This document shows, piece after piece, positions 24,735 to 42,886 of a stretch of DNA of 64,000 nt. The number at the start of each line of letters is the position of its first letter. The first letter of the stretch is position 1. The stretch is taken from assembly GCA_006503475.1 (NCBI GenBank), contig RSEH01000224.1, forward strand, positions 1 through 64,000. The letters run 5' to 3'. The notes beneath the pieces were generated by a model that did no database searches, was not told the DNA's origin, and saw nothing but the letters and a program-made list of their open reading frames with translations. The DNA is from Stentor roeselii (lineage: Eukaryota; Ciliophora; Heterotrichea; Heterotrichida; Stentoridae). Made by a program: the position numbers and the translations under genes.

Positions 24735-26594
24735 CTAAAGCAGTACTTCAATGACCTTAATAATATTTTCCCTGGCTTCCTGCAAGTTACTTTTAAGTAT
24801 TTTCAATTTTTTCTTCGTCCAATCAATATCACTCTCAACCTTTCCAAGTTTATCTTCAATGAAAGTATTATAAACATTTCTAGTCTTAAACTCATCATTT
24901 TCATTAACAGTATTAGCAGGAATGACATGAATAGAAGAAGTCAAAAACCCTCGATCAGTAGTTTCCTGGTCATCAACCTGCATAGGAAAGCTGATATGTT
25001 TTCTAAACATTTTATTCTGCAAGAAAATATCAACAGCGGCCTGTTGATGTTCTTTAAGTCTAACATTGCGTCCACAGGCGAGGTTCATGATCAAAGTGCT
25101 TTCATCTTCAAATCGTTTAAGAAGAGTTTCAAATCCTTCTTTGCTGAGAACTAAAAGTTCAGTTTTTTGAGTTGCTTTTGCATTGTAGGACCTTTCACTG
25201 CTTTCTGAGAATAAAAGATCGGTTTCTCCGAAGTAGTAACCTTGCTTCAGCAGGTTGAATGGAATTTCAAGGTCGTTTAGACTTAAATCGTCTTTGTAGT
25301 CGAGACTCATCTCGATTTCGCCTGATATTATGAAGTACATCTCGCAGGCGAGTTCTTTTGTTTTAAATACGTAGTCACCTTGCTCGATTCGCATTGGTTT
25401 TAGCATTGGAGCCACGAAGGCTACGAAGTCGGTGTTTTTGTTTTCGAAAAAAGCGTTTCCTTGTAGGTCTTTTTGGTAGATTACTATTAGAAGCTTTGTT
25501 CGAAGGGTTAGAGGCAGGTCATTTATCAAAGAGTCAATATTAGACTTGGTATTTTTATGTCGATATTCAAGAGCAGTTGCTATTTTCTTATAAAAACTTT
25601 TATCAATACTGGGATATTCACGATGTAATCGATTAACAATATCTAATTTTCTGGTTAACTTAGCTTCTCGAACATCCAGATTAGAAAGCAGGTTAGTAAG
25701 AGACCCGATAATATAAGAATAAAGAAAAATTCCAATAATCATACTCAAACAAGCAAAAACCCTTTCATTGCTATTATAAGCCTTGATATCCCCATACCCA
25801 ACAGTAGTCAAAGTAGTAGTCGCCCAATAAACAGCAGCTAAATAAATCTGCCAATCTCCATAATCCTGCATTTTCGTCATATAAATCCAGTTCCTATCAC
25901 TTTCCTGCTGATCAAACTTCCCAATAAACACCCAAAAGCAAGCCAAAATATGCACAAGCAATAAAAAAGTAATTAAAAACCAAATCAACCTTTCCAAAGC
26001 GATATGCACCCTGAAAATCGTGCTCATATATCTCAAAATCTTGTTATTTCTATTCACAAGTTTAATCATTCTCAAGAACCTGACAAGTTTCGCAAGTCGA
26101 TAAAGCTTTGAAACTTTAGTAATCCTTAAAAGTGACGAGTAGTTCTTTTCAGCGAACATGTACTGAACCTGAACACAACTGACTAAATCAACAATCATCC
26201 AAGATTTAAGATAATTCAAAAAAATCTTTTTTCTGTCAGTGACCAAGTTGCTTTCTTCATCGTAATACGCGAGAAGACTGTTAATCACGACGTCGACGAA
26301 GAACAAAGAGTCGACTGTTATGTCGATGATCATCCAGTCGGCAGTTTCGGTCTCAGAGACACAAACTCGGTAAGGAGAAATGATGCAGGTGTAGAGAAGA
26401 AGCATTGAAATGAAGTAGCTCCAGTATTCAAAAAAAGAGTCGTCTGGGTAAATGATTAGTTTTATGTGTTTGTATTCTTCACAGTCACGGGTTTTAGGAG
26501 ATTCTTTTTGAAGGTCTTCTGCTACTACCTTCCAGATTGTTTTTGATGTGCCTTTGCTTGATGCGATCTTTTCTACTGGGTAGATTTTTGACAT
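24735..26594 (-). CDS. Voltage-gated K+ channel with cyclic-nucleotide-binding domain (HCN/EAG type)
   Basis: 619 aa. S1-S4 occupy about 55-180, with a basic S4 (LYRLAKLVRFLRMIKLV). The pore loop carries the K+ filter TTVGYGD at 263-269. S6 follows, then a C-linker and a cNBD at about 382-495 whose phosphate-binding cassette reads GYYFGETDLL...ERSYNAKA. The arginine that contacts the cyclic nucleotide in HCN channels appears kept. A C-terminal helical tail ends the protein. The start lies only 56 nt from the start of the first anoctamin gene on the other strand, so the two may share a promoter. Ion choice follows from GYG; gating direction cannot be read. Confidence 0.9.
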   Translation of the reverse strand: MSKIYPVEKIASSKGTSKTIWKVVAEDLQKESPKTRDCEEYKHIKLIIYPDDSFFEYWSYFISMLLLYTCIISPYRVCVSETETADWMIIDITVDSLFFVDVVINSLLAYYDEESNLVTDRKKIFLNYLKSWMIVDLVSCVQVQYMFAEKNYSSLLRITKVSKLYRLAKLVRFLRMIKLVNRNNKILRYMSTIFRVHIALERLIWFLITFLLLVHILACFWVFIGKFDQQESDRNWIYMTKMQDYGDWQIYLAAVYWATTTLTTVGYGDIKAYNSNERVFACLSMIIGIFLYSYIIGSLTNLLSNLDVREAKLTRKLDIVNRLHREYPSIDKSFYKKIATALEYRHKNTKSNIDSLINDLPLTLRTKLLIVIYQKDLQGNAFFENKNTDFVAFVAPMLKPMRIEQGDYVFKTKELACEMYFIISGEIEMSLDYKDDLSLNDLEIPFNLLKQGYYFGETDLLFSESSERSYNAKATQKTELLVLSKEGFETLLKRFEDESTLIMNLACGRNVRLKEHQQAAVDIFLQNKMFRKHISFPMQVDDQETTDRGFLTSSIHVIPANTVNENDEFKTRNVYNTFIEDKLGKVESDIDWTKKKLKILKSNLQEARENIIKVIEVLL

Positions 26595-26650: not shown

Positions 26651-28990
26651 ATGGAAATCGATGATTGTAATGGATGTAAGGTCTGGGCTTCGTTGATTGA
26701 AGTTTTTAAGTTTTTTAATCCTTTTAAACAAACTGGAAAAACGAATATTACGATTGATCAGGCTAAGGAAACTATTTTTCGCTTGTTTAAAACTGATGAG
26801 AATAGTGAAAGGGAAAAATTTAGAAAAGCTAAAAGTGAGGAAGTTAATATTCTTACACCTTCTTCGAAAAGGAGGAAAATTGAAATGAAGAAATCGACAT
26901 CGATTCCTATTGAGATACTTGAACAGATTCCGTGGATTTTTCAGAATAAAAATGATGAAAAGATTAGCTTGAAGGAATTCAATATTATTATTATTTCTAT
27001 TGTTGCTTATACTATGAGTTCTCAAGGGTTTTTATACAGATTTCAAAAGTCAGCAGATGAGAAAGGATTATTTTTAAAGGTCTATGCAATCGAAGATATG
27101 CTAATCAGAGCAGCTAAAGACATGAAGTATCGTCTTAAAGTAAAACCTCAGCCAGACTGGGACGAAGCAGTGAAAAACTTTCCACTTTACTCCCCAATAA
27201 GCATCTCAAAAAACATAAACAAGAAAGACATTTTCTTAAAATACGATGAAAACGGAGAAGAATGTAAAATCAACTGTAAAATCGACTGTCCTCACAAAAG
27301 CCACTTCACAGTAACCGACAAATACCGTATTTTTCAAGGACATGTAAACCAAAAAATGGACCTAAGTATCTTAAAAAAGTTAAAACTCACCAACAATCGA
27401 TTTGTCCCTCATCAAGAGTTACCTTTACAAGACCTAAAAAAAGAATGGGCCGATTTTTGTCGTCTTGCCGCAAAGAAAAATACCAGAAAAGTCCGTACAT
27501 ACTTTTCCGAACAGATAGCTTTTTACTTTTGTTTTAGTGATGAATTAAAAACTTTTGTTAAAGTTTTAGCACCAGTTGGATTAATAGTATACATGATTCG
27601 TGTGATAAATTATTATACTTATAAATTTCAAGAAATGATTTACATTTACTTATTTTATGCTATTTTTCTTATTATCTGGTCAATTAGCTTCAATAAGCAT
27701 TGGGAAAGAAAAGAAAAATACTTGGCTTGGCAATGGGGAACTCTTGACTTTTCCGATCAAAAGATCCAAAGAGAGCAATTTAAAGGCTCCTACTCGATAG
27801 ACCCAGTGACGGACCAAATGAAACTAATCCGAAAGAACCCAGGGAAATACCGTCTGATTTACATAATAAGTCAACTAATCACAATCACATCTTTACTCTG
27901 TTGTCTTGCCAGTACTTATTTAATAAGTCAGATCGACTACCCAGACTTCATCACAGATAAAGAACTCGTTCAAGGAATAACAAATTCAATTCAAATCACA
28001 GCCTACAACTGGATTTACGCTTACATAGCAGAAAGTCTCACATCCTGGGAAAATCACGAAACAATTCAAGAACATAACGACTCTTTCATCTTAAAGCTCT
28101 TCATTTTCCGATTCATCAACTCGTACTCCAGTCTTCTCTACATCGGAATCATAAAAAGACTAAGAGGCGAAATATGTAGCGATGGAAGCTGCATGAAAGA
28201 ATTAGAAAAGCGATTAGGAATTATCTTCATTTCAGGAATTTTCTTTAATATCTTCGAAATCCTCTCTCCTTTGCTGGTCTTTTATTATAATTCTGGACTT
28301 TGTAAAAGAAAATTCGAGAACTTGCAAAATGAAGAACTGAAAAAACTTGAAAGAGAAGCTTTGCTGGTTCCTTATGATTATGCCTTAAGGGACTACATGG
28401 AACTTTGCATTCAATTTGGATATATTTCGATGTTTGGAGCTTCTAATCAGTTCCTCGGAGCTTACGCCTTAGTCGCTGCTTATTTAGAGACTCGCATCGA
28501 CTCTTTGAAACTTTGTAAAATCCTTAAAAGACCTGAACCTTGCAAAACTGAAAATATCGGAGTTTGGAAAAAAATTTTCTTTTTTATATCGATTTGTGGA
28601 GTTTTTAGCAATTTGGCGATAACTGTCTTTAATACTGGCCTGCTTAATGAGATTAATAATTTTGAAAAATTGAAAATTTTTGTATTTTGTGAAAAAACTG
28701 TTTTGGTTTTATGGTTTTTGATTTGGCTTGCACTTCCTAACTGTCCAAAAGCGGTTGTTGATGGAAAATGTTGGGCGAATAGGATGAATCATGAGTTTTT
28801 GGTTAAGGAAGTCAATGCGGCTTCTGTGAAAAGTACCTGGATGGCAAGGAAGTCTATAGTGTTTAAGTTTGGAGATAGTTTAGGAGTTGGAGAAGCTCGT
28901 CCTCGATTTCTTAGCGGGTCTGATAAAAGTTGTGGAAGTTTTAATGATGAGAAGAAGTTTTTTATAGAGATAAGTGACTTTCAATATTAA
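26651..28990 (+). CDS. Anoctamin (TMEM16) family protein 1
   Basis: 779 aa. The C-terminal two thirds match the anoctamin fold of ten membrane helices, with family motifs WENHETIQEHNDSFILKLF, CMKEL, DYMELCIQFGY and IGVWKK. The acidic residues that bind Ca2+ in TMEM16A have counterparts: E536 (E654), D581 (E702), E584 (E705), E613 (E734) and D617 (D738); the Asn650 position is Phe. The N-terminal 250 residues are soluble. Anoctamins are Ca2+-activated chloride channels or lipid scramblases; which applies here is not decided by sequence. It is divergent from the K+ channel and convergent with the next anoctamin (87 nt between stops). Confidence 0.88.
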   Translation: MEIDDCNGCKVWASLIEVFKFFNPFKQTGKTNITIDQAKETIFRLFKTDENSEREKFRKAKSEEVNILTPSSKRRKIEMKKSTSIPIEILEQIPWIFQNKNDEKISLKEFNIIIISIVAYTMSSQGFLYRFQKSADEKGLFLKVYAIEDMLIRAAKDMKYRLKVKPQPDWDEAVKNFPLYSPISISKNINKKDIFLKYDENGEECKINCKIDCPHKSHFTVTDKYRIFQGHVNQKMDLSILKKLKLTNNRFVPHQELPLQDLKKEWADFCRLAAKKNTRKVRTYFSEQIAFYFCFSDELKTFVKVLAPVGLIVYMIRVINYYTYKFQEMIYIYLFYAIFLIIWSISFNKHWERKEKYLAWQWGTLDFSDQKIQREQFKGSYSIDPVTDQMKLIRKNPGKYRLIYIISQLITITSLLCCLASTYLISQIDYPDFITDKELVQGITNSIQITAYNWIYAYIAESLTSWENHETIQEHNDSFILKLFIFRFINSYSSLLYIGIIKRLRGEICSDGSCMKELEKRLGIIFISGIFFNIFEILSPLLVFYYNSGLCKRKFENLQNEELKKLEREALLVPYDYALRDYMELCIQFGYISMFGASNQFLGAYALVAAYLETRIDSLKLCKILKRPEPCKTENIGVWKKIFFFISICGVFSNLAITVFNTGLLNEINNFEKLKIFVFCEKTVLVLWFLIWLALPNCPKAVVDGKCWANRMNHEFLVKEVNAASVKSTWMARKSIVFKFGDSLGVGEARPRFLSGSDKSCGSFNDEKKFFIEISDFQY

Positions 28991-29077
28991 TTTGAATAGT
29001 TTTAAAGTTTAGTGGTTGGTCTTAGATTATAAAGAAAATTGTTGAATTTTTTCTTAGATGATTTAAAAAATTAATAA

Positions 29078-31603
29078 TTATCTATAACAATTTTCATCTA
29101 AATACTTTAAACTCAACTCATTCATAATCGGTTGAGAAGACCTGTCATTTTCTATACAACAAGTCCTTCCCTTGTCCACCGAGGCCTTAACCCATTCCAA
29201 TCCAACCCTCTTCCCCCAGTTCTTTCCCCGAGAAACAACTAGAGGCATCTCAGGAACCCCATTCCAAAAGCTAAGAACAAGTAAAATAAAAACATGTTCA
29301 ACAATCCAAAAAACAAGAACCCTATCAAACCTGAAGTCATCACTGATAAACCCAAGATTATTCCCACTTTCATCATGTCTAGCCTTAAGCAGGCCAGTTG
29401 TAAAAACACTGATACCAGAATTAGTAAAAATTCCACAAATTGCAATAAACATTAAAATATTCTTCCAAACTCCAATATCTCCAGTTTTCGTCGGTTCCTG
29501 TCTTTGAAAAAGTTTACAAATTTTAACAACATCAATTTTCAACTCAATATAAAGACCTACAACAACAACAAGTCCAAATAAATGATGGGCAGTTCCAAAG
29601 AGAATCAAATACCCGATACGAGTGATGATTTCCAGATAATCTTTAATGGCGTAGTCGTATTTTTCTAGAATTAATTGCTTCTCGATTCTTTGCAAGTCTT
29701 TATCTTCCACTCCTGTGAATTTTGACTGATGAAGAAAGAAACCTTTTCGAGATTTGAAAATTTTTTTCGCATAAGGATGGCCGATTTCGATGATGTTGAA
29801 TAAGATGCTTGTGGAAAAAATAGTGAAAAGACGGTAGGTTAGTTCACGCATGCAACTTCCTTCGCTGCATCTTCCTTCGTGTTCTCTTTTGTAGAATGCG
29901 ACGTAGAATAAACTGAGGTAACTGTTGAAGAACTTGAAGATGAATAATTTTATGATCATTGAATCGTTGTGGGATTGAATTGTTTCGTGGTTTTCTAAGG
30001 ATGTGAGTTTTTTTGAGAGAGAACGAAAGATGAAGTCGAGGAAGTAGATTTGAAAGGTTGTAACCACACCGATTATTAACTCTGTTGAATGCATACTGAA
30101 ATTTGATAATAGAAGAATTGACTTTAATTGATCGGTTAGCACCACGGAGATCATTGTCAGGGAAATGAAGGAAAATGTGAAAAAATAGTTCAGGATTTTA
30201 AATAGGTCGTATTTTAATGAACCGTTGCTTAGGACTCGCATTTGACCGGTAACTGGATCTTCGCCGAAAGTCCCTTTAAAATTACTGCGTTGAGACTGTT
30301 TCTTATCAAATTTCAAAGTTCCCCACTTCCAAGCCAGGTACTTCTCCCTTCTTTGCCAAGTTTTCATGAGCCAGAAAGTCCAGAAAATCAAGAAGAAGCT
30401 GAACATGAAATAAGAGATCAAGATATTGCTTTTATTCTCAACATCAACTGAGTGATGAATAATTCTGATTAAATGAACGACGACTCCAACTAGTGCAAGT
30501 AAAATAGTGAATCTCATGAGTACTTTGACGAAAGCGAAGTAAAGCGCAACCTGTTCAGCGAAGTAGTTTTTTATTTTCCCAAGAGGTAAGGTGTTAGTAT
30601 AAATCACTCCAGTGAACTGATGAATTTCAGCAGCAAGTTCATCATCGTGAAGGACCATTCTTTCTAATAAAATCTTCCTTTTTTCTGATAAAACACTCAA
30701 ATCCATGAACTGATTAAGAACCTGGTTCATTATTCTGAACTTATCAGTAAAACTTAAAATACTTCCTTCTTTTCCTGCTTCAAAAGGCACTTCTTCACCT
30801 TTATCATCAAATCGAACAAAAAGGTTCTTAAAGTCTTCTTTTATTACATTGTCAGAAGCAGTGATTTCCCAGTAAGATGAAAACTTTTTGAACTTTTTAT
30901 CAGAATTTGACTGATTTCTGAGTTTTAATCTGTAGTTCATGTTGGAAAGATATGGCCAGAGGTCTTCTTCACTTGCCTGAATGAGTACAAAAATTTCTTT
31001 TTTATTAATTGATTGCTTTAAGTGATAATTGAATTGACATTCCTTGATATTGGCTAAAACTCCTAATATTAGGATTAAGTCGAAGTGGGTCTCGTGAATA
31101 GCTGAGTTTTTATCTGTCTTTTCTTGAATGAATTTTATTAGCTTTTTTATTAGATATGGAAAGTCCTTTAAAGGGTCTTGATGAAGTTCCAGGTTATTAA
31201 ATCCAGCCCTTAATGAGTTTCTTTTTGGCCTTTCAGAGATTTTGTCTTCATCGATTTCTTTAAATTCATCTCCTAGGATATCGGAATAAGATTTTGAATT
31301 ATGATATTGTTTAAATCGTTCAAAAGCTAAGTCTTCATTGTTGTCTATGTTGAATTGATTTGTGAGTATTTTTACTTCTGGCTTGTTTTTGTATAACGAT
31401 TCTGAAAAACTCAAGATTTTTGACTGGCTTGTTGAAGAGAAATGTGATCTAAAAAGATTGAAAAGGATTTCTTTTGATTGAGAAAGTATTATTGTTTTGT
31501 TTTGTTTAGACTTGATGTATGACGGGTGAAGAGGATTTTTGAATACCAGGACTTCGATAAACTCTTTTGTATTTTGCTCACTCTTTGATGAATTTGCAGA
31601 CAT
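29078..31603 (-). CDS. Anoctamin (TMEM16) family protein 2
   Basis: 841 aa, the longest of the five, with an extended N-terminus of about 300 residues before the first helix. Diagnostic blocks are present: LENHETIQSHNDSMIIKLF, CMREL, FNIIEIGHPY, KDYLEIITRIGY, GLYIELKIDVVKIC and IGVWKN. The Ca2+-site acids are kept (Glu in NIIE, Asp/Glu in DYLE, Glu and Asp in IELKID). It is the most divergent member and is tail-to-tail with anoctamin 1. The start is preceded by AATTCTAAAAATG. No intron is needed. Confidence 0.87.
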   Translation of the reverse strand: MSANSSKSEQNTKEFIEVLVFKNPLHPSYIKSKQNKTIILSQSKEILFNLFRSHFSSTSQSKILSFSESLYKNKPEVKILTNQFNIDNNEDLAFERFKQYHNSKSYSDILGDEFKEIDEDKISERPKRNSLRAGFNNLELHQDPLKDFPYLIKKLIKFIQEKTDKNSAIHETHFDLILILGVLANIKECQFNYHLKQSINKKEIFVLIQASEEDLWPYLSNMNYRLKLRNQSNSDKKFKKFSSYWEITASDNVIKEDFKNLFVRFDDKGEEVPFEAGKEGSILSFTDKFRIMNQVLNQFMDLSVLSEKRKILLERMVLHDDELAAEIHQFTGVIYTNTLPLGKIKNYFAEQVALYFAFVKVLMRFTILLALVGVVVHLIRIIHHSVDVENKSNILISYFMFSFFLIFWTFWLMKTWQRREKYLAWKWGTLKFDKKQSQRSNFKGTFGEDPVTGQMRVLSNGSLKYDLFKILNYFFTFSFISLTMISVVLTDQLKSILLLSNFSMHSTELIIGVVTTFQIYFLDFIFRSLSKKLTSLENHETIQSHNDSMIIKLFIFKFFNSYLSLFYVAFYKREHEGRCSEGSCMRELTYRLFTIFSTSILFNIIEIGHPYAKKIFKSRKGFFLHQSKFTGVEDKDLQRIEKQLILEKYDYAIKDYLEIITRIGYLILFGTAHHLFGLVVVVGLYIELKIDVVKICKLFQRQEPTKTGDIGVWKNILMFIAICGIFTNSGISVFTTGLLKARHDESGNNLGFISDDFRFDRVLVFWIVEHVFILLVLSFWNGVPEMPLVVSRGKNWGKRVGLEWVKASVDKGRTCCIENDRSSQPIMNELSLKYLDENCYR

Positions 31604-33165
31604 TTTTAGAATTATTTGAAGATAGTTGCATATTTAGTTATTCGAGTTGGGTATGTGAGTAAATGAAAATTCCTTTGAATTTTTAACTATAATTCAATAA
31701 ACTTACTAGAAAAACTTTAATTTTCTTATTTGTTGAATTCAAATGTTTGATTCATTTATTTCAAAGATTCACAGGCTTATATGCCCAGAACGGTTAAGTT
31801 TAATATTTTTTAAAACTCTCTCTTTCCAATAGGCTTCTTTAACTTCACTATCCTCATTTACTTGTTAATACATCAACCTTATCAAGAAGTTTTTATCAAC
31901 TCTTGAATTTTTTGGTAAAGTTAATAGATTTGAAATATTTCTAAATTAAAATAATCAAAGTTTTCCAGAGTTATAGAAATCATAATTTTGGACTATTATT
32001 TTATTCAATATATCAATCCAGTAGTAAAGGATGTCTACCAAGTTTCAACAGTGACAAATAGGAATAAATTATAAAATTATTGAAACAAGACAAACTATTC
32101 GATGACATTGAAAAGAGGTTTGTATCAAAGATAGTCGTGGTAACCAATTTACTCGTCCAACTTCCTGAATATAATTTTTCTATTTTAAATGTAATTAAAT
32201 ACAAGTTTATACAACTGTTGATGAATTTAAAGAGAAAATAATTGATATGGTGTAATTGTAAGGTACTTGAATATTCTCATTGTTTTCAACATTTGTGAGT
32301 ATTGCAAGGTTTACTATAAAAATATTAAAAAAAACGATTTTAATACTAACTAGTATTCCCCCCAGCAGGTGATTGATCTACTATAATCCTCACTTGTGAT
32401 TTCAACTTCACTTGTATAACAAAAGATAGCAAGAATAGCTGAATTAATTAAAATAATTAGCTAAATGAAAAATACGGAAGCGATAAATTCACTACTCTTG
32501 TCAGAAAACAACAAAAATATTTAGCTTTGATAATCATTTGACCTAAGACTAATCTTTTTGTATTTCATTTCCACACTTGTCTCTAGATTCGATAATGTTA
32601 AACGTTCTAATTTTCCTATTCAAGCACTATTTTTAATGATCTTTGAAAAATTTCTGTAAAGTGATCCCATAGATAATAAGAAAAACTAATTAAAACTGGT
32701 AAGATTAGGATTGATTTTAGAAACTTAGTGATTTAAAATTTGATTAGAGTATATCAGCGAGAATCCTAAAGATATATAATCATTTTTAAGGTTTTTAGAA
32801 AAGTTTTATTGTTGATATCTAGGATTACGCTTGGTTTATATATGAGAAAGTTAGTCAAATTAATTGGAGTATTGCAATTTGAGTGAATATCATCCTAGTG
32901 AATCTATTTTTTCATTAATTTTCGTTACAAATATATTTATTTTTGAGTTTCAATATATGATTTTAAATATAATTGTAGAAAGTGATGGAAATAATATTGT
33001 CTAATTGGAATTAAACAGATTATTGTGAGTAGTCTCAAATATATCAATCTAAAATTAGGTGCATTCTTAAACAATATTAAATAATTTTAAAAAAATTCAA
33101 ACAATCTCTTATTCTTTAAATTGTATAAAAGGCTATTTAGAAAGTTCATCTATTATCCTAACTAA
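31604..33165. other. Intergenic, 1.56 kb, nothing recognised
   Basis: AT-rich and stop-rich in every frame. It holds the promoter side of anoctamin 2 and the 3' side of anoctamin 3. No remnant of a further anoctamin copy was recognised. The rightmost 30 nt belong to a block that is repeated at the 3' end of anoctamin 4. Confidence 0.5.
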
Positions 33166-35547
33166 CTACTGCTGAATAGTATTCGCTCTTCTCCTATTCA
33201 AATCAAATTGGAAATCAGATTTTTTAACAAACCTTGATCTACTCCAGAAACTCTTAGTGTAAGGATTTTTTTCTATTTCATGCGAAATTCTTTTAGCCCA
33301 GTTGGTACTTCTAATGATAACATCAGGGACAGGAGATACCATGGTCCACATCACAGCAGCAACTAAAAACATCGAGTTTTCAACAAAGATAAATAATAAA
33401 ACTTTATATCGAGGGTCGATATCATTAAGTAAACCTGTTGTAAAGATACTGATTGCAGTATTTGTGAAGATTCCGCAAAGTGATACAAATAAAAACAACT
33501 GTTTCCATACTCCGATACTTTTTGATTTAATTGGTTCAGGTCTTCTTATTATTGTGCAGAGCTTTAGAGAGTCGATTCTTGACTCTAAGAATAATGCAAT
33601 TAATGCCAGAATTCCTATAAGATGATGAGAAGCGCCGAATAATGCGATGTAACCAAACATGGTGAAGATTTCCATGTAGTCATTGATTGTGTTGTCATAA
33701 GGTTCTAACAATGACTCTAGCTTTATTTCGAAATCTTCATCTTTTTTTTTTAAATTTTTTAGGCTAAAGGTTTTATATGTGATCAATATCCTAAACCAGT
33801 ACTTCACCCAAGGCAACCCAATCTCAACAAAATTGAAAACAAGACATGTTGAAAAGATAATCATAAGTCGATACCCAAGTTCAGTCATACAACTTTTATT
33901 TTGACATTTTTCTTTATCCTTCAAAAATGCAATTTCAAACAAGTTCCAGTAGCTGTTAACGAATCTGAAAATAAATAATTTCAAAATCAGCGAATTATTA
34001 TGTTCATGAATAGTTTCATGGTTTTCAGCATCAGTCAATTTTCTTGCAATAAAATTATAAGAAATATTGAAAACATTGATCTGGATACCAAACATAATCC
34101 CTCCAAGCAGTTGGTAAATTTGACTATTTGCATAAACTTCACTAGCGTATTTAACTCCAGTTAAATATTGAAACAGTAAAGGAATCTGAGAATTACAAAG
34201 AATTCCAAGAATCATAAAACTGCCAGACCCTATAAAACTTGCAACTTTTATAAAAAAATAACGAACTGGATATTCATTTATAATTTTCATCTTGTTGGTT
34301 ACTTCATCTTTCTTATATTTCCCTTTGAATTCCTGTCTTTGGATCTGATCATGTGAACAATTCAAAGTTCCCCATTTCCAAGCTAATATTTTTTTTTTTC
34401 TTTGGAAGACTTTGTTGAAAGTCAAGCCCCAAATGATGAGAAAAACACTGTAAAAGTGGTATAAGATGATTATTTGATGCGATTTTATGAAATAATAGTT
34501 GATGATTCTAAATGAATAAATAATCAAGCCTAAGATCGCTAAAACCTTGATAAAGTCTTTAAGGAGATCTAGGAAGTTGAAGTAAAATGCGATTTGTTCA
34601 GAGAAGTAGGTTTTGATGAGATCAGAAGGCATTGGCTTCAGGAAATTCGAGAAGCCAGCCCATTTCTTGCTCAGTTTTTTAATTGGAACTTTTTGATGCA
34701 AAATAAAACGGTCAAGCATAATATCTTTAGACATCAAAACACTAAGATCAATGTTTTCTGCAAGTAAAGAGTTTATAATAATATACTTATCATTAAAGGT
34801 AAGAATTCTACCATCATCTACTTCTTTATCTATTTGGTCATAATTCACGAAAGTCCTATTTAGTTGATGTTTTTTTATGAAATGAATTGGTATATAGAGA
34901 GAGTGTTTTTGGAAATCATTAACCCATTCAAGTTTTTTTTTCAATTTTAGCTTGTAATGCATTTTCATTGCATTATCAATAATGGTTTCTTCACTCGCTA
35001 TAACTCTAACATAAATTTCTCTTTTAGAACTTGAATCTAAGAATTCAAGTTTAAGATTGTGAAATTTTAAAACAGCAAAAGTTGACTCAATCATCAAAAT
35101 ATAAAAATCGCTTTTTGTATTTATAATAGAACTTTTTATGATATCTTCAACTATCTGATAAATTTCTGAGTCTGTTTTTGGTGAAGAGAGTTTATTTGTT
35201 ACAAATTTTTGCATTTCTTCTATTTTTTTTAAAGGCTTATCATTTTCTTCTTTCGGATTAGATCCTGTTGATTCTGTTAATTTTTTTTTATTTATTTCGA
35301 TTTGATTAGCTTCAGATGAGACTGCATTTTTGTTTTCTGCTGATGAATCTTGATCAGTTTCGGGCAAGCTTTTTTTAAAGAGTCGACGCATACTATTGTT
35401 GACTTCATCCATTTTACATGGGGTAGTCCAGAGTTTTTTATAGTCTTCATGCTGTATATTGATGAATTTTAGCATTTCAATCACTGTTTCATCAGGAACT
35501 TGAGGACTTACTCTAGGTGTCTCCATACTATTTACAATTGAGGCCAT
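33166..35547 (-). CDS. Anoctamin (TMEM16) family protein 3 (recent tandem copy)
   Basis: 793 aa. It is very similar to the next two genes, from the N-terminal ETVIEMLKFINIQ block to the end (SDFQFDLNRRRANTIQQ). Family motifs: AENHETIHEHNNSLILKLF, CMTEL, FNFVEIGLPW, NDYMEIFTMFGY, LFLESRIDSLKLC, IGVWKQ. All five acidic Ca2+-site positions are kept. The start ATG (MASIVNSMETP) has no TATAAA run beside it. Similarity to anoctamin 4 extends about 35 nt beyond the stop and into at least 150 nt of upstream DNA, so duplication is recent and included flanks. Confidence 0.9.
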   Translation of the reverse strand: MASIVNSMETPRVSPQVPDETVIEMLKFINIQHEDYKKLWTTPCKMDEVNNSMRRLFKKSLPETDQDSSAENKNAVSSEANQIEINKKKLTESTGSNPKEENDKPLKKIEEMQKFVTNKLSSPKTDSEIYQIVEDIIKSSIINTKSDFYILMIESTFAVLKFHNLKLEFLDSSSKREIYVRVIASEETIIDNAMKMHYKLKLKKKLEWVNDFQKHSLYIPIHFIKKHQLNRTFVNYDQIDKEVDDGRILTFNDKYIIINSLLAENIDLSVLMSKDIMLDRFILHQKVPIKKLSKKWAGFSNFLKPMPSDLIKTYFSEQIAFYFNFLDLLKDFIKVLAILGLIIYSFRIINYYFIKSHQIIILYHFYSVFLIIWGLTFNKVFQRKKKILAWKWGTLNCSHDQIQRQEFKGKYKKDEVTNKMKIINEYPVRYFFIKVASFIGSGSFMILGILCNSQIPLLFQYLTGVKYASEVYANSQIYQLLGGIMFGIQINVFNISYNFIARKLTDAENHETIHEHNNSLILKLFIFRFVNSYWNLFEIAFLKDKEKCQNKSCMTELGYRLMIIFSTCLVFNFVEIGLPWVKYWFRILITYKTFSLKNLKKKDEDFEIKLESLLEPYDNTINDYMEIFTMFGYIALFGASHHLIGILALIALFLESRIDSLKLCTIIRRPEPIKSKSIGVWKQLFLFVSLCGIFTNTAISIFTTGLLNDIDPRYKVLLFIFVENSMFLVAAVMWTMVSPVPDVIIRSTNWAKRISHEIEKNPYTKSFWSRSRFVKKSDFQFDLNRRRANTIQQ

Positions 35548-36976
35548 TAATCATCTAATCTAATATACTTGAGTAGCTTTTAATGAAATTAAGTTTGACT
35601 TGATTTTTGGATTTTTTATCTGGAATAGCGAGGCTTAGAACTTTTTCAATGAATTAATTCATTTGAAAAGGCCTGGATGCCTTAAAGTTCTTTGATTTGG
35701 TATTTAAAGAATTCGGATAATTTTTGCACCAGAGAAATGGGTGACAAGTAGCAAATGTATTAGAAATTGAATATTATTTGATTATAGTTAGATTAAATTT
35801 GCCTATGAGATCAAAGAGGGTAAGAATCGTATTTACTAGAGATAAGTAGGATTGTTGATGATTATTATCGGTTTTTTATTTTAGATGAGATTTGTTGAGT
35901 GAAAATTTATATGAAAGCTGTGTTTTTTTGATGAGAGTGGAGAATCTGATGTGATTAGTAATGATACTGGAAATTTACTTAATTTAGATCTTTAGCAGGT
36001 AAATTTCTCAATTTTCTGTTTTGATTAGCTCTATGGAATTGTTGAATAATGCATATTTTTTCCGAAATTCTATGGAAGCTTCTAACATCATATAGCCTAT
36101 CAAACTATTAAAAGCATCAGATATTTGTTCAAATATCTTCATTCTTTTTAAAGGAAATCCCAAATTCTAAAAATTTTAAAAATTCTAATCAAGGAATGAT
36201 ATCTTATCATAAAATCATCTGAAGAATGAATGCTGAGATCTTTGAATATAGAAATCCTTCAAGCATTCTATAATTTAATCAATTGCACAAAATTTTAAAT
36301 TGGATTTATATTTTACCCTAACTATATCAATTTAGATGGGATAAATTAACAATAAGAGTCAAAATTATAAACTCTTAAGGATCATCTAATGCATTTAATT
36401 CCTTTGTCTCATAATTTGGGATTTCAAAAAATATAGTCTTAGAACTTCATATTTCCTCAACTAAATGTATCAGTTCTAGATAATGATAAGAAAAGAAGAA
36501 AATCATGATGCTGAATTGACCTTATTAGTTAATAAATATCACGATAGAGTTTAGCTAAATAAAGCATTATAATTATTAAACTGTAGATAATTATGTAAAT
36601 ATAAAATCCCAATATGGAAAAAACTATTAGTTCTTACTTAGAATATTTAAACAAAATCATGCTACAATTTCTATAAATCAGATAACAGAAAGAGTAAATT
36701 GATCTATTTTTAATTATTGAATTAGGATTCAAGGTTTTTGAAATAATTTTAGCTCATCAAGACTTATATTAATAAAAGATCTTCTAAAGCTATAAAAGTA
36801 TTCAAATGTCCAAATAGTAGCCTCATATAAATTCCTATAAAATTATCACAAATTAGTAGCCTCATATAAATTCCTATAAAATGATCACAAATCATAAAAA
36901 TCTTACACAAAATCAAAAAATCTGATTCTTTGATTTTAATAGTCTATTTAGAAAGTTCATCTATTATCCTAACTAA
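35548..36976. other. Intergenic, 1.43 kb, duplicated promoter segment plus a 39-bp tandem repeat
   Basis: The first 200-400 nt resemble the region upstream of anoctamin 4 (39392-39850), including a shared block AAGGCCTGGATG about 125 nt before the start codon. A two-copy 39-bp tandem repeat lies at 36815-36892. The rest is AT-rich and empty. Confidence 0.65.
36815..36892. repeat. Two-copy 39-bp tandem repeat
   Basis: Units 36815-36853 and 36854-36892 are identical except for one base (T versus G near the end). It lies 3' of anoctamin 4 and is not seen beside the other copies. Confidence 0.9.
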
Positions 36977-39391
36977 CTAGTGCTGAATAGTATTCGCTCT
37001 TCTCCTATTCAAATCAAATTCGAAATCAGATTTTTTAGTAAACCTTGATTTATTCCAGAAACTCTTATTATAAAGATTTTTTCCAATTTGAATTTCATGC
37101 GAAATTCTTTTAGCCCAATTGATACTTTTACCGACAATATCAGGGACAGAAGATACCATAGCCCAAATAACGACAGCGACTAAAAGCATTGAGTTTTCAA
37201 CAAAAATAAACAATAAACCTCTATCATAATTGTCTACATCATTAAGTAACCCTGTTGTAAAGATACTGATTGCTGTATTTGTGAAGATTCCGCAAAGTGA
37301 TACAAATAAAAACAGCTTTTTCCATACTCCGATACTGTTTGTTTTTATTGGTTCAGGTCTTCTTATTATTGTGCAGAGCTTAAGAGAGTCGATTCTTGAC
37401 TCTAAGAATAATGCAATAAATGCAAGAATTCCTAGAAGATGGTGAGATGCGCCGAATAATGCGATATAACCAAACATAGTGCAGATTTCCATGTAGTCAT
37501 TGATTGTGTTGTCATAAGGCTCTAACAATGACTCTAGCTTTATTTTGATATCTTCATCTTTTTTATTTAAATTTTTTAGGCTAAAGGACCCAAATGTTTT
37601 CTTTATCCTTATCCAGTACTTCACCCAAGGTTTACCTATTTCAATAAAATTGAAAACAAGACTAATTGAAAAAATGACCATAAGACGATACCCAAGTTCA
37701 CTCATACAACTATGTCGTTGGCATTTTTCTTTTTCTTTCAAAAATGCGATTTCAAACAAGTTAAAGTAACTATTAACGAACCTAAAAATAAATAGTTTCA
37801 AAATCAGTGAACTATTATATTCTTGAATAGTTTCATGATTTTCAGCATTAGTCAATTTCCTTGCAATAATATTATAAGCAATATTGAAAACATTGATCTG
37901 TACACCATACATAATCCCTCCAAGCAGTTGATACCCTTTACTATTCGCATACTCTTCACTAGCATATTTAACTCCAGTTAAATAATAAAAAAATGCAGGA
38001 ATTGAAATATTCGTCAGAATCCCAAGCATCATAAAACTGCCAGACCCGATAAAACTCGCGACTCTGATTAGGAAATAAAGAAATTGATGTTCATTTATGA
38101 TTTTCATTCTACCTGTCGGTTCATCTATCTTGTAAGTTCCTTTGAATTCTTGTCTTTGGATCTGATTATCTGCAAAGTCCAAAGTTCCCCATTCCCAAGC
38201 CAGTTCTTTTTCTTTTCTTTCGAAGGCTTTGTTGAAAGTCAATCCCCAGATGATGAGGAAAACACAGTAAAAGTGGTATAAGACGATTATGTGATTTGAT
38301 TTGATGAAATAATGGTTGATTATTCTGGATATATATATGATCAAACCTAAGATCGCTAAAACTTTGATAAAGTCTTTGAGAAGATGAAGGAAGTTGAAGT
38401 ATAATGCGATTTGTTCAGAGAAGTATGTTTTGATTAGGTTTGAAGGCATTGGTTTCATGAAACTTGAGAAACCAGCCCATTTTTGTTTCAGTTCTTTGAT
38501 TGAATCTTTCTGATGCAAAATAAAACGGTCAAGCATTAAACCATTTGATATCAAAACACTGAGATCGATGTTTTCTGCAAGCATGGAATTGATAATTATA
38601 TATTTATCGTTGAAGGTTAGAAGACTGCCGTTATCTACTTCTTTACCATTTTTGTCGTAATTGACGAAAGTAGTTTTCTGATTATATATAAGGATGTGGT
38701 TAAGTGGCATATTGAGAGAGTGTTTTTGGAAATCATGTACCCATTCCGGTTGTTTTTTCAATTTTAGCTTGTACTGCATTTTTTTGGCTTGATTTATAAT
38801 GTTTTCTTGACTTGATTTTATTTTTACATATATTTCTTTTTTAGAACTGGATTCTAAGACTTCAAATTCAAGACGATGAATTTTTAAAATAGCAAAAGTT
38901 GATTCAGTCATCAAAATAAAAAGATTCAATATTGTCATATTTTCATCAGAGGCGTTTATGATTTTTTCGACTATCTGATAAATTTCAAGAACTTTTCTTT
39001 TATTCGACAATTTTTCTTTTACATAATTTTGTCTTTCTGTTATATTTTCCATGTTAACAAACTTTGATTGTATTTCTTCTGATTTAATCTCCTCAGCTAC
39101 AGGATTGTCTTTATTTTGGATTTCTTGTACTAATTTACTCAGACCTTCGAAAAAGTTAACTTTTTTTGGATTTTCTTCTTCTTTTTTCTTTTCTTCTTCT
39201 TCCTTTGATATTTCATTCTGAATCGATTCTAAGTCTTTTTTTAAGAGTCGAAGTATTTCTTCAATAGCTTTTTCCTTAGAAATCTTCCTATTGCAGAGGC
39301 TTTCATAGTCTTGATGCTGGATATTGATGAATTTAAACATCTCTATCACTGTTACATCACTAACCCGAGGATTGACTACAGGACTTTCCAT
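36977..39391 (-). CDS. Anoctamin (TMEM16) family protein 4 (recent tandem copy)
   Basis: 804 aa from the ATG at 39391 (MESPVVNPRVSDVTVIEMF). The ATG that corresponds to the anoctamin 3 start is still visible about 20 nt upstream but is out of frame here, so the downstream Met is the likely start. The soluble N-terminal part is longer and rich in Glu/Lys (about 60-130). Membrane and Ca2+-site motifs match copies 3 and 5: AENHETIQEYNSSLILKLF, FNFIEIGKPW, NDYMEICTMFGY, LFLESRIDSLKLC. The 3' end and stop region are nearly identical to anoctamin 3. Confidence 0.9.
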   Translation of the reverse strand: MESPVVNPRVSDVTVIEMFKFINIQHQDYESLCNRKISKEKAIEEILRLLKKDLESIQNEISKEEEEKKKEEENPKKVNFFEGLSKLVQEIQNKDNPVAEEIKSEEIQSKFVNMENITERQNYVKEKLSNKRKVLEIYQIVEKIINASDENMTILNLFILMTESTFAILKIHRLEFEVLESSSKKEIYVKIKSSQENIINQAKKMQYKLKLKKQPEWVHDFQKHSLNMPLNHILIYNQKTTFVNYDKNGKEVDNGSLLTFNDKYIIINSMLAENIDLSVLISNGLMLDRFILHQKDSIKELKQKWAGFSSFMKPMPSNLIKTYFSEQIALYFNFLHLLKDFIKVLAILGLIIYISRIINHYFIKSNHIIVLYHFYCVFLIIWGLTFNKAFERKEKELAWEWGTLDFADNQIQRQEFKGTYKIDEPTGRMKIINEHQFLYFLIRVASFIGSGSFMMLGILTNISIPAFFYYLTGVKYASEEYANSKGYQLLGGIMYGVQINVFNIAYNIIARKLTNAENHETIQEYNSSLILKLFIFRFVNSYFNLFEIAFLKEKEKCQRHSCMSELGYRLMVIFSISLVFNFIEIGKPWVKYWIRIKKTFGSFSLKNLNKKDEDIKIKLESLLEPYDNTINDYMEICTMFGYIALFGASHHLLGILAFIALFLESRIDSLKLCTIIRRPEPIKTNSIGVWKKLFLFVSLCGIFTNTAISIFTTGLLNDVDNYDRGLLFIFVENSMLLVAVVIWAMVSSVPDIVGKSINWAKRISHEIQIGKNLYNKSFWNKSRFTKKSDFEFDLNRRRANTIQH

Positions 39392-40516
39392 ATATTTACA
39401 TTTGAGGCCATTATTGATCAAATCGAATGTTCTTGAGAAGGTTTAAATTATATCATGTCTGACGTAAATTTTCAAGATTTTGGATTTTGATCTGGAATTG
39501 ATACGCTTTTGGACTTTTTAATAAATATAAGTTATTCGAGAAGGCCTGGATGGGTTAAATCCTTTGATTTGGATTATTTTCCACAGTGAAATAATTGAAA
39601 TGCAGGAGAGGTCTCTGTGGTTGAAGGATATTGATTTTAGTTAGGATAGCAATTTAGATATGAGATGAAAAAAGCTGAGAATTGGTAGTGACTAGAGATA
39701 AGTAAGAAGTTTGACGATTATTATAGTGTTTTGGTATGAGATCAAATTTTTAGAAAGTATTTTTATATGAAAGTTGTGACTAATTGGATTTGGAGTCAAA
39801 GTATCTGGATATGATTAGGGATGATAGTAGTTTATTCGCCTTACTTAGGTTGTTATATAGCTTAGGCCCCTAAATGTTTCTGGCTTAATTATCTGTATAG
39901 ACAATATAGAAAAGTTCATGTGTTAACTAAAAATTTTCCAAGATTATCGTTTGTATAACTATTAAAGGCATCAAATATTAGGTTAAATGCTATTGATTAT
40001 TAAGAAAAGCAATCCTTGGGCCGATGAATTCACAATTATAATCATCACAGAACATATTATATTTGATTGAATAAATATCCTTTAGTATTAATATATAGAA
40101 TCTTATTAGAAATTGTATATATAATCAAATTATACACAAAGTTGAAATTTGAATATATATTAGATACTTTATCTAGTTGGTCATTCTTTATTTATTAGTA
40201 AATTACTTGAAAATTTTCATAATTACCTGGCTTAAGTCTTTAAAATATTCCTGGATGTATATAATTTTTAGCTTAATACTATAACACATAGAAGATACCT
40301 GCTGCGATGACCAACTCATAACTGCAGTGAATAATTACAATTATTATCATATAAGAGGACTTACTTCTCATGAAATATTTTAAACATCTCTAATTCATCA
40401 AGAGCTCTAAAATATTAAACCCTAAACAAAAAAAGATCTTTCAAGAGACAACATGAGTTCAATAAATCTAAAGATATCCAAGTTTCTCTAATTGAATTAA
40501 AAATTAATCTATAATC
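39392..40516. other. Intergenic, 1.1 kb, duplicated upstream segment
   Basis: The first 200-450 nt match the upstream region of anoctamin 3 in patches (TTTTGGATTTTGATCTGGAA, AGAAGGCCTGGATG, CTTTGATTTGG, AGAGATAAGTA). The remainder is AT-rich without recognisable genes. Confidence 0.6.
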
Positions 40517-42886
40517 CTACCCTACGATCACATTTTTTCTATTAATATCGAATTCAAAACGACCAATATTCCCATATCTCGTTTTTCGCCAGATAGTCGA
40601 CTTTAAATTCCTATCTCCCAGTTTGATTTGATTTGCAGTTATTTTTGCCCAATTTTTACCTTGATTGACAACATTAGTTACAGAAGAGACCATGGCCCAA
40701 ATGACAGCAGCGGCTAAAAGCATAGAATTTTCTATAAAAATAAATAATAAGGCTCTATGACCCCTGTCTAAGCCATTAAGCAGACCTGTTGTAAAGACGC
40801 TGATCCCAACATTGGTGAAGATTCCGCAAAGTGAAATAAATAAGAAAAGCTTCTTCCAGATTCCAATGCTATTCGTTTTGAATGGCTCCGGTCTTCTTAG
40901 TATTGTGCAAAGCTTTAATGCGTCGATTCTTGACTCGAAATAAAGAGCGATCAATGCGAGAATTCCAACCAGATGATGAGAAGTACCAAATAGTGCGATG
41001 TACCCGAACATGGTGCAGAGTTCCATGTAATCATTTATAGTATTATCATAAGGCTCTAACATTGACTCTTGTTCTATTTTTAGAAGATCTTCGCTGATTT
41101 CTACTGAATTGCGTAAGTTGAAGCTTCCGAATGTTTTCTTGGTCCTGATCCAGTACTTCACCCAAGGCATACCAATTTCAATAAAATTGAAAACAAGACA
41201 TGTTGAAAAAATTGCCATGAGACGATATCCAAGTTCACTCATACAACTATGTCCTTCACATTTTTCTTTCTTTTTCAAAAATGCGATATGAAACAAGTTC
41301 AAGTAACTATTAACAAACCTGAAAATGAATAGTTTCAAAATCAATGAATTATTATGTTCTTGAATAGTTTCATGATTTTCAGCATTAGTTAATTTTCTTG
41401 CAATAATATTATAAGTAATATTAAAAACATTGATCTGAATCCCAAACATCACCCCTCCAAGCAATTGATATTCTTTACTATTAGCATAAACTTCACCAGC
41501 ATATTCAACTCCAGTCAAATATTGAAAGAGTAAAGGAATTGCCAAATTTGACAGAATTCCAAGCATCATAAAGCTACCAGATGCAATAAAACTCGCGATT
41601 CTTATAAAAAAATAACGAATAGGATGAGTATTGATTATTTTCATTTCGCCACTTGGTTCATCTTTCATATAAGTTCCTTTGAATTCTTGTCTTTGAATAT
41701 GATCACCTGAAAAATCCAAAGTTCCCCAAGCCAAAGCCAGTTCTTTTTCTTTTCTTTCGAAGACTTTATTGAAAGCCAATCCCCAGATGATGAGAAAAAC
41801 GCAGTAAAATTCATAAATGACGAACATATAATCTGAATTAATAAAATAATGATTGATTATTCTGAGACTGTATATAAGTAAACCTAAGATTGCTAAGACT
41901 TTTATAAAGTCTTTGAGAAGATGAAGGAAGTTGAAGTAAAATGCGATTTGTTCAGAGAAGTAGGTTTTGATCAGGTTTGAAGGCAGTGGTTTAAAGAATT
42001 TAGAGAAATCTGCCCATTCTTCTTTCATTTCATCAATTGGGACTTGCTGATGCAAAATGAAGCGATTAAGCATGATACCATTAGATGCTAAAACACTAAG
42101 ATCGATTGTTTTTGCAAGAACAGAATTGACTAGAAGGTACTTATCGTTAAAGGTTAGAATACTTCCATTATCTGTTTCTTGGCCATACTGATCGTAGTTC
42201 ACAAATGTATTCATTTTATCTAGGTTTTCGTTAGTGGTTATTGGGATATAAAGTGACTGTTGTTGGAAATCACTCACCCATTCAGGTTTTTTTTTCACTT
42301 TTAACTGATATTTCATATTAAAGGCATAATTCAACAGGGTATTTTCACTTGCTATGACTTTCACGTAAAGAGCATTTTTCGAAGTGGAATCTAAAATTTC
42401 AATTTTAAGATTATGAACTCTTAAAAGAGCATAAGTACATTCAATCATGTACTGAAAAAACTCATATTTAGAGATGCTTTCAGTGCTTTGCTTCATCTTT
42501 TCGCTATCAATTATCAATGGGCAAATTTCTTTCACTTCATTTGGGATGAGAAGGTATTCTTTTTTCACTGAAGAAGAATTTTCAGAACTTGAGACAAAAT
42601 TTTCAAGTTTTTTCTTACTTTTCGTTTTTTTCTTTAACTTTTTTTCTTGTTTCTTTAGTTTTTTTTGTCTTTTTTTGGCTTTTCTTACTTCCTGAGCTGT
42701 GAATGAGATTGTTTTGAAAAGTCTGAGTATTTCCTTAGTGGCTTTTTCCTTTGAAATTTTTTCATTTTTAAGATCTTGGAAGTCTGGGCAGTCGATATTG
42801 ATGAACTTGAGCACTTCGATGACTGTTTCTTCTGTTTTCTCAGAGTTTATCACAGGGATCTCCATTGTATTTATATTTGAGGTCAT
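40517..42886 (-). CDS. Anoctamin (TMEM16) family protein 5
   Basis: 789 aa from the ATG at 42886 (MTSNINTMEIPVINSEK), a start that aligns with anoctamin 3 (MASIVNSMETP). A hydrophobic stretch upstream in the same frame has no ATG and is probably not translated. A Lys-rich run (about 85-110) marks the soluble N-terminus. Family motifs: AENHETIQEHNNSLILKLF, CMSEL, FNFIEIGMPW, NDYMELCTMFGY, LYFESRIDALKLC, IGIWKK, with all five acidic Ca2+-site positions. It is clearly in the clade of copies 3 and 4 but more distant, and its flanks show no obvious duplication. Confidence 0.9.
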   Translation of the reverse strand: MTSNINTMEIPVINSEKTEETVIEVLKFINIDCPDFQDLKNEKISKEKATKEILRLFKTISFTAQEVRKAKKRQKKLKKQEKKLKKKTKSKKKLENFVSSSENSSSVKKEYLLIPNEVKEICPLIIDSEKMKQSTESISKYEFFQYMIECTYALLRVHNLKIEILDSTSKNALYVKVIASENTLLNYAFNMKYQLKVKKKPEWVSDFQQQSLYIPITTNENLDKMNTFVNYDQYGQETDNGSILTFNDKYLLVNSVLAKTIDLSVLASNGIMLNRFILHQQVPIDEMKEEWADFSKFFKPLPSNLIKTYFSEQIAFYFNFLHLLKDFIKVLAILGLLIYSLRIINHYFINSDYMFVIYEFYCVFLIIWGLAFNKVFERKEKELALAWGTLDFSGDHIQRQEFKGTYMKDEPSGEMKIINTHPIRYFFIRIASFIASGSFMMLGILSNLAIPLLFQYLTGVEYAGEVYANSKEYQLLGGVMFGIQINVFNITYNIIARKLTNAENHETIQEHNNSLILKLFIFRFVNSYLNLFHIAFLKKKEKCEGHSCMSELGYRLMAIFSTCLVFNFIEIGMPWVKYWIRTKKTFGSFNLRNSVEISEDLLKIEQESMLEPYDNTINDYMELCTMFGYIALFGTSHHLVGILALIALYFESRIDALKLCTILRRPEPFKTNSIGIWKKLFLFISLCGIFTNVGISVFTTGLLNGLDRGHRALLFIFIENSMLLAAAVIWAMVSSVTNVVNQGKNWAKITANQIKLGDRNLKSTIWRKTRYGNIGRFEFDINRKNVIVG

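Follow-up and report, generated by a model that had tools for sequence, protein, structure and literature searches.

An array of five anoctamin (TMEM16) genes and one decayed copy in the ciliate Stentor roeselii, probably a lineage-specific product of local duplication

In anoctamins, or TMEM16 proteins, the binding of Ca2+ at helices 6-8 gives lipids and ions passage through an opened groove. Humans have ten of them. The group of cells to which Stentor belongs is known for its Ca2+-triggered responses. A third Ca2+ site of TMEM16A, allosteric and composed of E425, K428 and D884, is described in passages of PMC8640346. OSCA/TMEM63 proteins are placed in the same superfamily as TMEM16 in parts of PMC5868767 and PMC11534332.

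Within the open-access literature searched (subscription papers and preprints lay outside its scope), nothing was found on anoctamin with Stentor; anoctamin with Paramecium returned a chloride review only, and with Tetrahymena only papers on other subjects. TMEM16 combined with protist or ciliate phylogeny gave nothing on ciliate anoctamins in the accessible parts of the open-access sources, and among the matches listed for TMEM16 with "ciliate", a term that also catches "ciliated", none concerns ciliates by its title. Anoctamin and TMEM16 are not mentioned in PMC4685582, PMC7935092 and PMC8208649, nor are channel, calcium, chloride, scramblase and TMEM in PMC9371601, nor ciliate, Paramecium, Tetrahymena and Stentor in PMC5868767. 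TgDAT1, considered as an alveolate parallel, is an MFS protein and not a TMEM16 according to the available text of PMC13298984.

The window analysed here is a stretch of 64,000 nucleotides, positions 1-64,000 of contig RSEH01000224.1 of Stentor roeselii (assembly GCA_006503475.1). A first-pass annotation had reported five anoctamin genes at 26651-42886, the first of them inverted. All five open reading frames are present there, each matching the Pfam profile PF04547 (Anoctamin) with 271-295 bits, and the first indeed lies on the plus strand and the other four on the minus strand. The decayed sixth copy was absent from that description. The features of the locus are as follows.

24735-26594, minus strand: K+ channel with cyclic-nucleotide domain, 619 aa; Ion_trans and cNMP_binding (Pfam)
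26651-28990, plus strand: anoctamin A1, 779 aa, PF04547 295 bits; the inverted copy
29078-31603, minus strand: anoctamin A2, 841 aa, PF04547 278 bits; an old copy
~32098-32805, minus strand: decayed sixth anoctamin copy, from frameshift-aware alignment to A5 residues 319-570
33166-35547, minus strand: anoctamin A3, 793 aa, PF04547 271 bits
36977-39391, minus strand: anoctamin A4, 804 aa, PF04547 283 bits
40517-42886, minus strand: anoctamin A5, 789 aa, PF04547 283 bits

With a bit-score cut-off of 28, the PF04547 matches of A1-A5 are far beyond chance, and in all five the profile is covered from position 1 to 452-456 of its 460 positions. The genes can be read as long open frames requiring no intron; tryptophan is encoded by TGG, and the frames remain open when TGA is counted as a stop, which speaks against the genetic code of Blepharisma. 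A5 matches the human TMEM16K structure 5oc9 with an E-value of 2.8e-33 (phmmer). A family profile built from 16 proteins (A1-A5 and 11 relatives from the same genome) finds TMEM16F with an E-value of 9e-104, over the N-terminal domain and the helices as far as helix 10. It also finds the structures of TMEM16K, TMEM16A, nhTMEM16 and afTMEM16, with matches down to 5e-61. The OSCA/TMEM63 domains PHM7_cyt and RSN1_7TM are absent from all five proteins in Pfam scans; PF04547 is their sole Pfam match, which sets them apart from OSCA/TMEM63. The array consists of genes of a known type with some unusual Ca2+-site substitutions, and its proteins are most likely new members of a known family, Ca2+-activated scramblases or channels.

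Three further observations concern the window. A 39-nt tandem repeat of 2.4 copies (36804-36892) occupies the spacer immediately downstream of A4. Loose 15- and 17-nt intron patterns are no more frequent in the window than in shuffled sequence. An open frame of 3557 aa (6270-16943, minus strand) contains about ten TIG and two G8 domains, a CEMIP beta-helix and a PA14 domain, an architecture that resembles fibrocystin/PKHD1-like proteins.

The profile search of the whole assembly (44.4 Mb, 522 contigs) gave at least 40 PF04547 matches, read as 25 full-length genes, three contig-end fragments, one decayed gene and 11 weak places. The 25 full-length genes among the matches listed comprise the five of the array and 20 elsewhere, and on no contig besides that of the window is there a second intact anoctamin among these matches. 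The fragments are broken at contig ends, one at the start of contig C520 (L029) and two on C296, one at each end (L030 and L031); they suggest one or more extra anoctamin copies split by the assembly. A decayed anoctamin (L038) lies on C383 at ~66000-67500, within a locus of 64500-68500, with an intact relative ~52 kb away on the same contig. Its frameshift-aware score to this relative is 492, and 200 shuffles reached at most 62. At seven of the 11 weak places the proteins were scanned, the other four being one each on C186, C5, C127 and C117. Because all seven carry PHM7_cyt (six above the cut-off), they look like OSCA/TMEM63 proteins; RSN1_7TM was found in three of them (one above the cut-off). 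Three weak matches fall on C186 (L034; two scanned) and two on C5 (L035; one scanned), where OSCA/TMEM63-type genes seem to be locally clustered too. No relatives were confirmed in viral contigs. The anoctamin on C355 (L028) contains a 15-nt in-frame intron, GTAAGAAAAAATTAG, at reverse-strand position ~3572, with an A at its position 10; introns of Stentor are described as 15 nt long and with such an A, as in this gene, in passages of PMC9505925. This one clear intron makes a heterotrich source likely.

Relationships among the copies were examined in a maximum-likelihood tree of 28 rows, the 25 full-length genes and parts of three mammalian proteins; the contig-end fragments were dropped. A1-A5 are monophyletic with support of 100/100, in keeping with the single-family origin assumed at first pass: the five genes remain in one clade and are not scattered over unrelated ones. 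A wider group of seven, also supported 100/100, adds one gene each on contigs C510 and C71; its inner order is poorly fixed, and a genome search with A5 likewise gave these two as the nearest anoctamins outside the array among the matches listed. A3-A5 constitute a subclade with 100/100 support. They are the closest tandem copies, with identities of 70% (A3/A4), 63% (A4/A5) and 61% (A3/A5), and all three lie on the minus strand, as had been proposed. The further proposal that copy 2 is older than these three holds. Its order relative to A1 is less firm: A1 is the first to branch within the array, the node joining A2 to A3-A5 is weak (88/64), A1 and A2 are 34% identical, and A1 is old as well.

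Since dS among A3-A5 is 0.48-0.97, their duplications are old, not recent. Their dN/dS is 0.28-0.39 overall and 0.17-0.26 in the membrane part, and A3-A5 evidently evolve under purifying selection, stronger in that part. DNA homology between A3 and A4 is confined to two blocks (33080-35166 versus 36896-38986, and 35429-35922 versus 39294-39778), which reach beyond A3 by ~375 nt on its upstream side and by 86 nt on its downstream side; the duplicated unit therefore contained these lengths of flank. In Tajima relative-rate tests, array genes had changed more than the C510 or C71 gene in 39 of 40 comparisons (p<0.05; p=0.059 in the exception), which are not independent of each other, and the control comparison of C510 with C71 was not significant in 4 of 4. 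By this measure the array evolves faster than the single-copy C510 and C71 genes, its nearest relatives.

The spacer between A2 and A3 gave weak colinear tblastn matches on the minus strand, and frameshift-aware alignment matches residues 319-570 of A5 to 32098-32805 with two stops and ten frameshifts. The score of this relic against A5 is 219, compared with a mean of 44.6 (sd 5.4, maximum 57) in 100 dinucleotide shuffles, and A5 scores at most 49 in the six other spacers on either strand. Scores against A4 (226), A5 and A3 (218) exceed those against A2 (115) and A1 (85), and the relic appears closest to A3-A5. No other convincing relic emerged when both strands of the six other spacers were searched with two array proteins (A2 and A5) and with the C510 protein; scores were 35-49, except that the C510 protein scores 61 on the plus strand of 39392-40516, where 200 shuffles reached at most 60. 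Array proteins A1-A5 score just 39-49 there, and this match, one of about forty comparisons, is taken as chance, which is not proven.

With five intact genes and a relic between A2 and A3, the cluster is therefore a tandem family of the birth-and-death type, and a clear case of this mode in the anoctamin family. We consider it probable that this is a lineage-specific tandem TMEM16 array derived from one ancestral gene by local duplication, with proteins acting as Ca2+-gated TMEM16s.

The K+ channel gene beside the array had been noted at first pass, and the open frame, its domains and the 56-nt gap separating it from the divergently oriented A1 were all found again. Its translation carries the TVGYGD filter and matches 5v4s, HCN and SKOR chains (cyclic-nucleotide-gated and plant K+ channels). 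From this arrangement a membrane-excitability or membrane-repair locus had been suggested. A rival reading makes array and channel one functional excitability module under a shared bidirectional promoter. The divergent orientation, the short gap and the nature of the neighbour, a K+ channel with a cyclic-nucleotide domain, would fit such a module, as would the anoctamin on C355, which has a related channel ~4.7 kb away (midpoint to midpoint). Channels of this kind are, however, numerous: a search with the K+ channel gave at least 71 genomic matches, one of them the channel itself. Among the matches listed, anoctamin and channel lie within 10 kb of each other (midpoint to midpoint) in two pairs, this one and that on C355, against 0.77 expected at random, a rough test that covers 10-kb proximity and not immediate adjacency by itself. 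Gaps of 56 nt or less separate three of 13 divergent open-frame pairs in the sequence examined, the pair of channel and A1 counted; these pairs are ATG frames of at least 180 aa, with gaps distorted by introns and small genes. Moreover, no gated channel was recognised by Pfam among 30 open frames at 17 other anoctamin loci, nine of the 30 having no Pfam match; these loci (16 of the 20 other full-length ones and one fragment locus, some neighbours only, with L010, L011, L019 and L023 outside the scan) carry kinases, RING proteins, one eukaryotic porin, a sugar transporter and others. A bidirectional promoter could in any case serve only A1. By these rough tests the proximity and the 56-nt gap are compatible with chance and need no functional explanation, and the idea of an excitability or repair locus found no support; a common module is very unlikely, and the K+ channel probably does not belong functionally to the array.

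As the first-pass annotation had stated, the acidic Ca2+ positions are kept in all array copies, where the equivalents of TMEM16A Glu654, Glu705, Glu734 and Asp738 are accompanied by Asp at position 702. The former four are retained in all 25 full-length genes (the counts exclude contig-end fragments). At position 702, where TMEM16A has Glu, 23 of the genes carry Asp and two carry Glu. In the second fragment on C296 the helix-8 Ca2+ residues are changed.

At the position of Asn650, four residues before Glu654, Phe had been reported for some copies and is found in all five, so that the array has no Asn there. Phe there is not special to it, because none of the 25 genes has Asn at this position (8 Lys, 1 Arg, 6 Phe, 5 Leu, 4 Met, 1 Ala). 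All 25 have Asn three residues before the Glu654 equivalent. Both helix-6 positions are occupied by Asn in mammalian TMEM16A and TMEM16F, and the human TMEM16K chain has Asn four before its Glu by direct count, although MAFFT shifted it by one column. Either the ligand was lost, or a small shift of helix 6 lets the neighbouring Asn serve; we treat the Asn650 ligand as a supporting feature that membership of the family does not require. The Lys or Arg present in nine genes (L011, L013, L014, L017, L018, L021, L022, L023 and L026) might substitute for bound Ca2+.

The third site, likewise not required for membership, is absent from all five array proteins: Lys replaces E425 throughout, the K428 position is Glu/Gln/Gln/Glu/Glu in A1 to A5, and the D884 position Asn/Glu/Pro/Ser/Ser, an acid being retained in A2. 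It is intact in eight of the 25 genes, all of one clade (Arg counted as Lys), and incomplete in 12 of the 20 full-length genes outside the array. Judged from these residues, the array has lost this regulatory site in all five copies, which suggests an altered Ca2+ sensitivity. The helix-6 Asn displaced in all 25 genes, the Lys or Arg in nine and the broken third site of the array could be read together as a ciliate lineage that rebuilt TMEM16 Ca2+ sensing. The array proteins would then be of low affinity, opening only at very high Ca2+ such as at a membrane wound, and the Lys/Arg paralogues would hold a built-in cation and act without Ca2+. We regard this as a speculative reading with little probability.

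The same substitutions bear on whether the array proteins have lost Ca2+ control and drifted to a structural or tethering role. Some TMEM16-like proteins, yeast Ist2 among them, are tethers and not transporters. Loss of the third site, Phe at the Asn650 position, a decayed copy within the array and the faster change relative to the sister genes (39 of the 40 non-independent tests, none of the four controls) all point in this direction, but the acidic primary site is intact in five of five and A3-A5 are under purifying selection that is stronger in the membrane part. Such a drift seems improbable to us.

Proteins acting as Ca2+-gated TMEM16s remain the preferred reading, and by analogy with the family the following mechanism is proposed. 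Each array protein would most likely be a dimeric TMEM16 of ten helices. Ca2+ entering the cytosol would occupy the acidic site of helices 6-8, opening the membrane-facing groove, through which phospholipids would cross between the leaflets, with or without ions. The paralogues are probably tuned to different times, places or Ca2+ sensitivities. Structural prediction adds little detail: an AlphaFold model made from the five array sequences has a mean pLDDT of 44, too low for conclusions on the Ca2+ pocket; Foldseek with this model ranked TMEM16 or Ist2 at all of positions 1-47, with weak TM-scores of 0.14-0.25; and a hydropathy scan gave overlapping peaks and no clean helix count.

We favour, with some reserve, a scramblase or scramblase-channel and rank it above a pure Cl- channel, since TMEM16 proteins more commonly scramble lipids. 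That A1-A5 are Ca2+-activated Cl- channels like TMEM16A, and not scramblases, is a doubtful though not negligible alternative, resting on TMEM16A belonging to the same family and on the retained acidic primary site. Over the compared parts, though, all five are less identical to TMEM16A (24-25%) than to the scramblase TMEM16F (25-27%), by small differences, and channel-only behaviour is called exceptional within the family in portions of PMC11534332. A role of the array in behaviour or wound repair, also raised at first pass, is a guess. At least 25 full-length anoctamins in the genome of a single-celled organism do provide a natural series of Ca2+-site variants.

Among known systems, TMEM16F shares homology with the array over the N-terminal domain and the helices as far as helix 10, and TMEM16A, TMEM16K, nhTMEM16 and afTMEM16 share it through the membrane part. 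The array has the acidic Ca2+ ligands of helices 6-8 in common with TMEM16A, TMEM16F and TMEM16K, at an identity of 23-27% (23-27% also for TMEM16K alone). Unlike mammalian anoctamins it has Phe at the Asn650 position and a lost third site at helices 2/10, and unlike mammalian and fungal TMEM16 genes it comprises five adjacent copies and a decayed one. OSCA/TMEM63 proteins differ in carrying PHM7_cyt, whereas the array proteins carry PF04547 only. Within the genome, the C510 and C71 genes and the eight-member long clade have the same acidic Ca2+ residues as the array and the same Asn three before the helix-6 Glu; C510 and C71 evolve more slowly, and all eight genes of the long clade retain the third-site triad (E, K/R, D), which the array does not. 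The other anoctamins of this genome have no second intact copy on their own contig among the matches listed, in contrast to the array, where five stand side by side.
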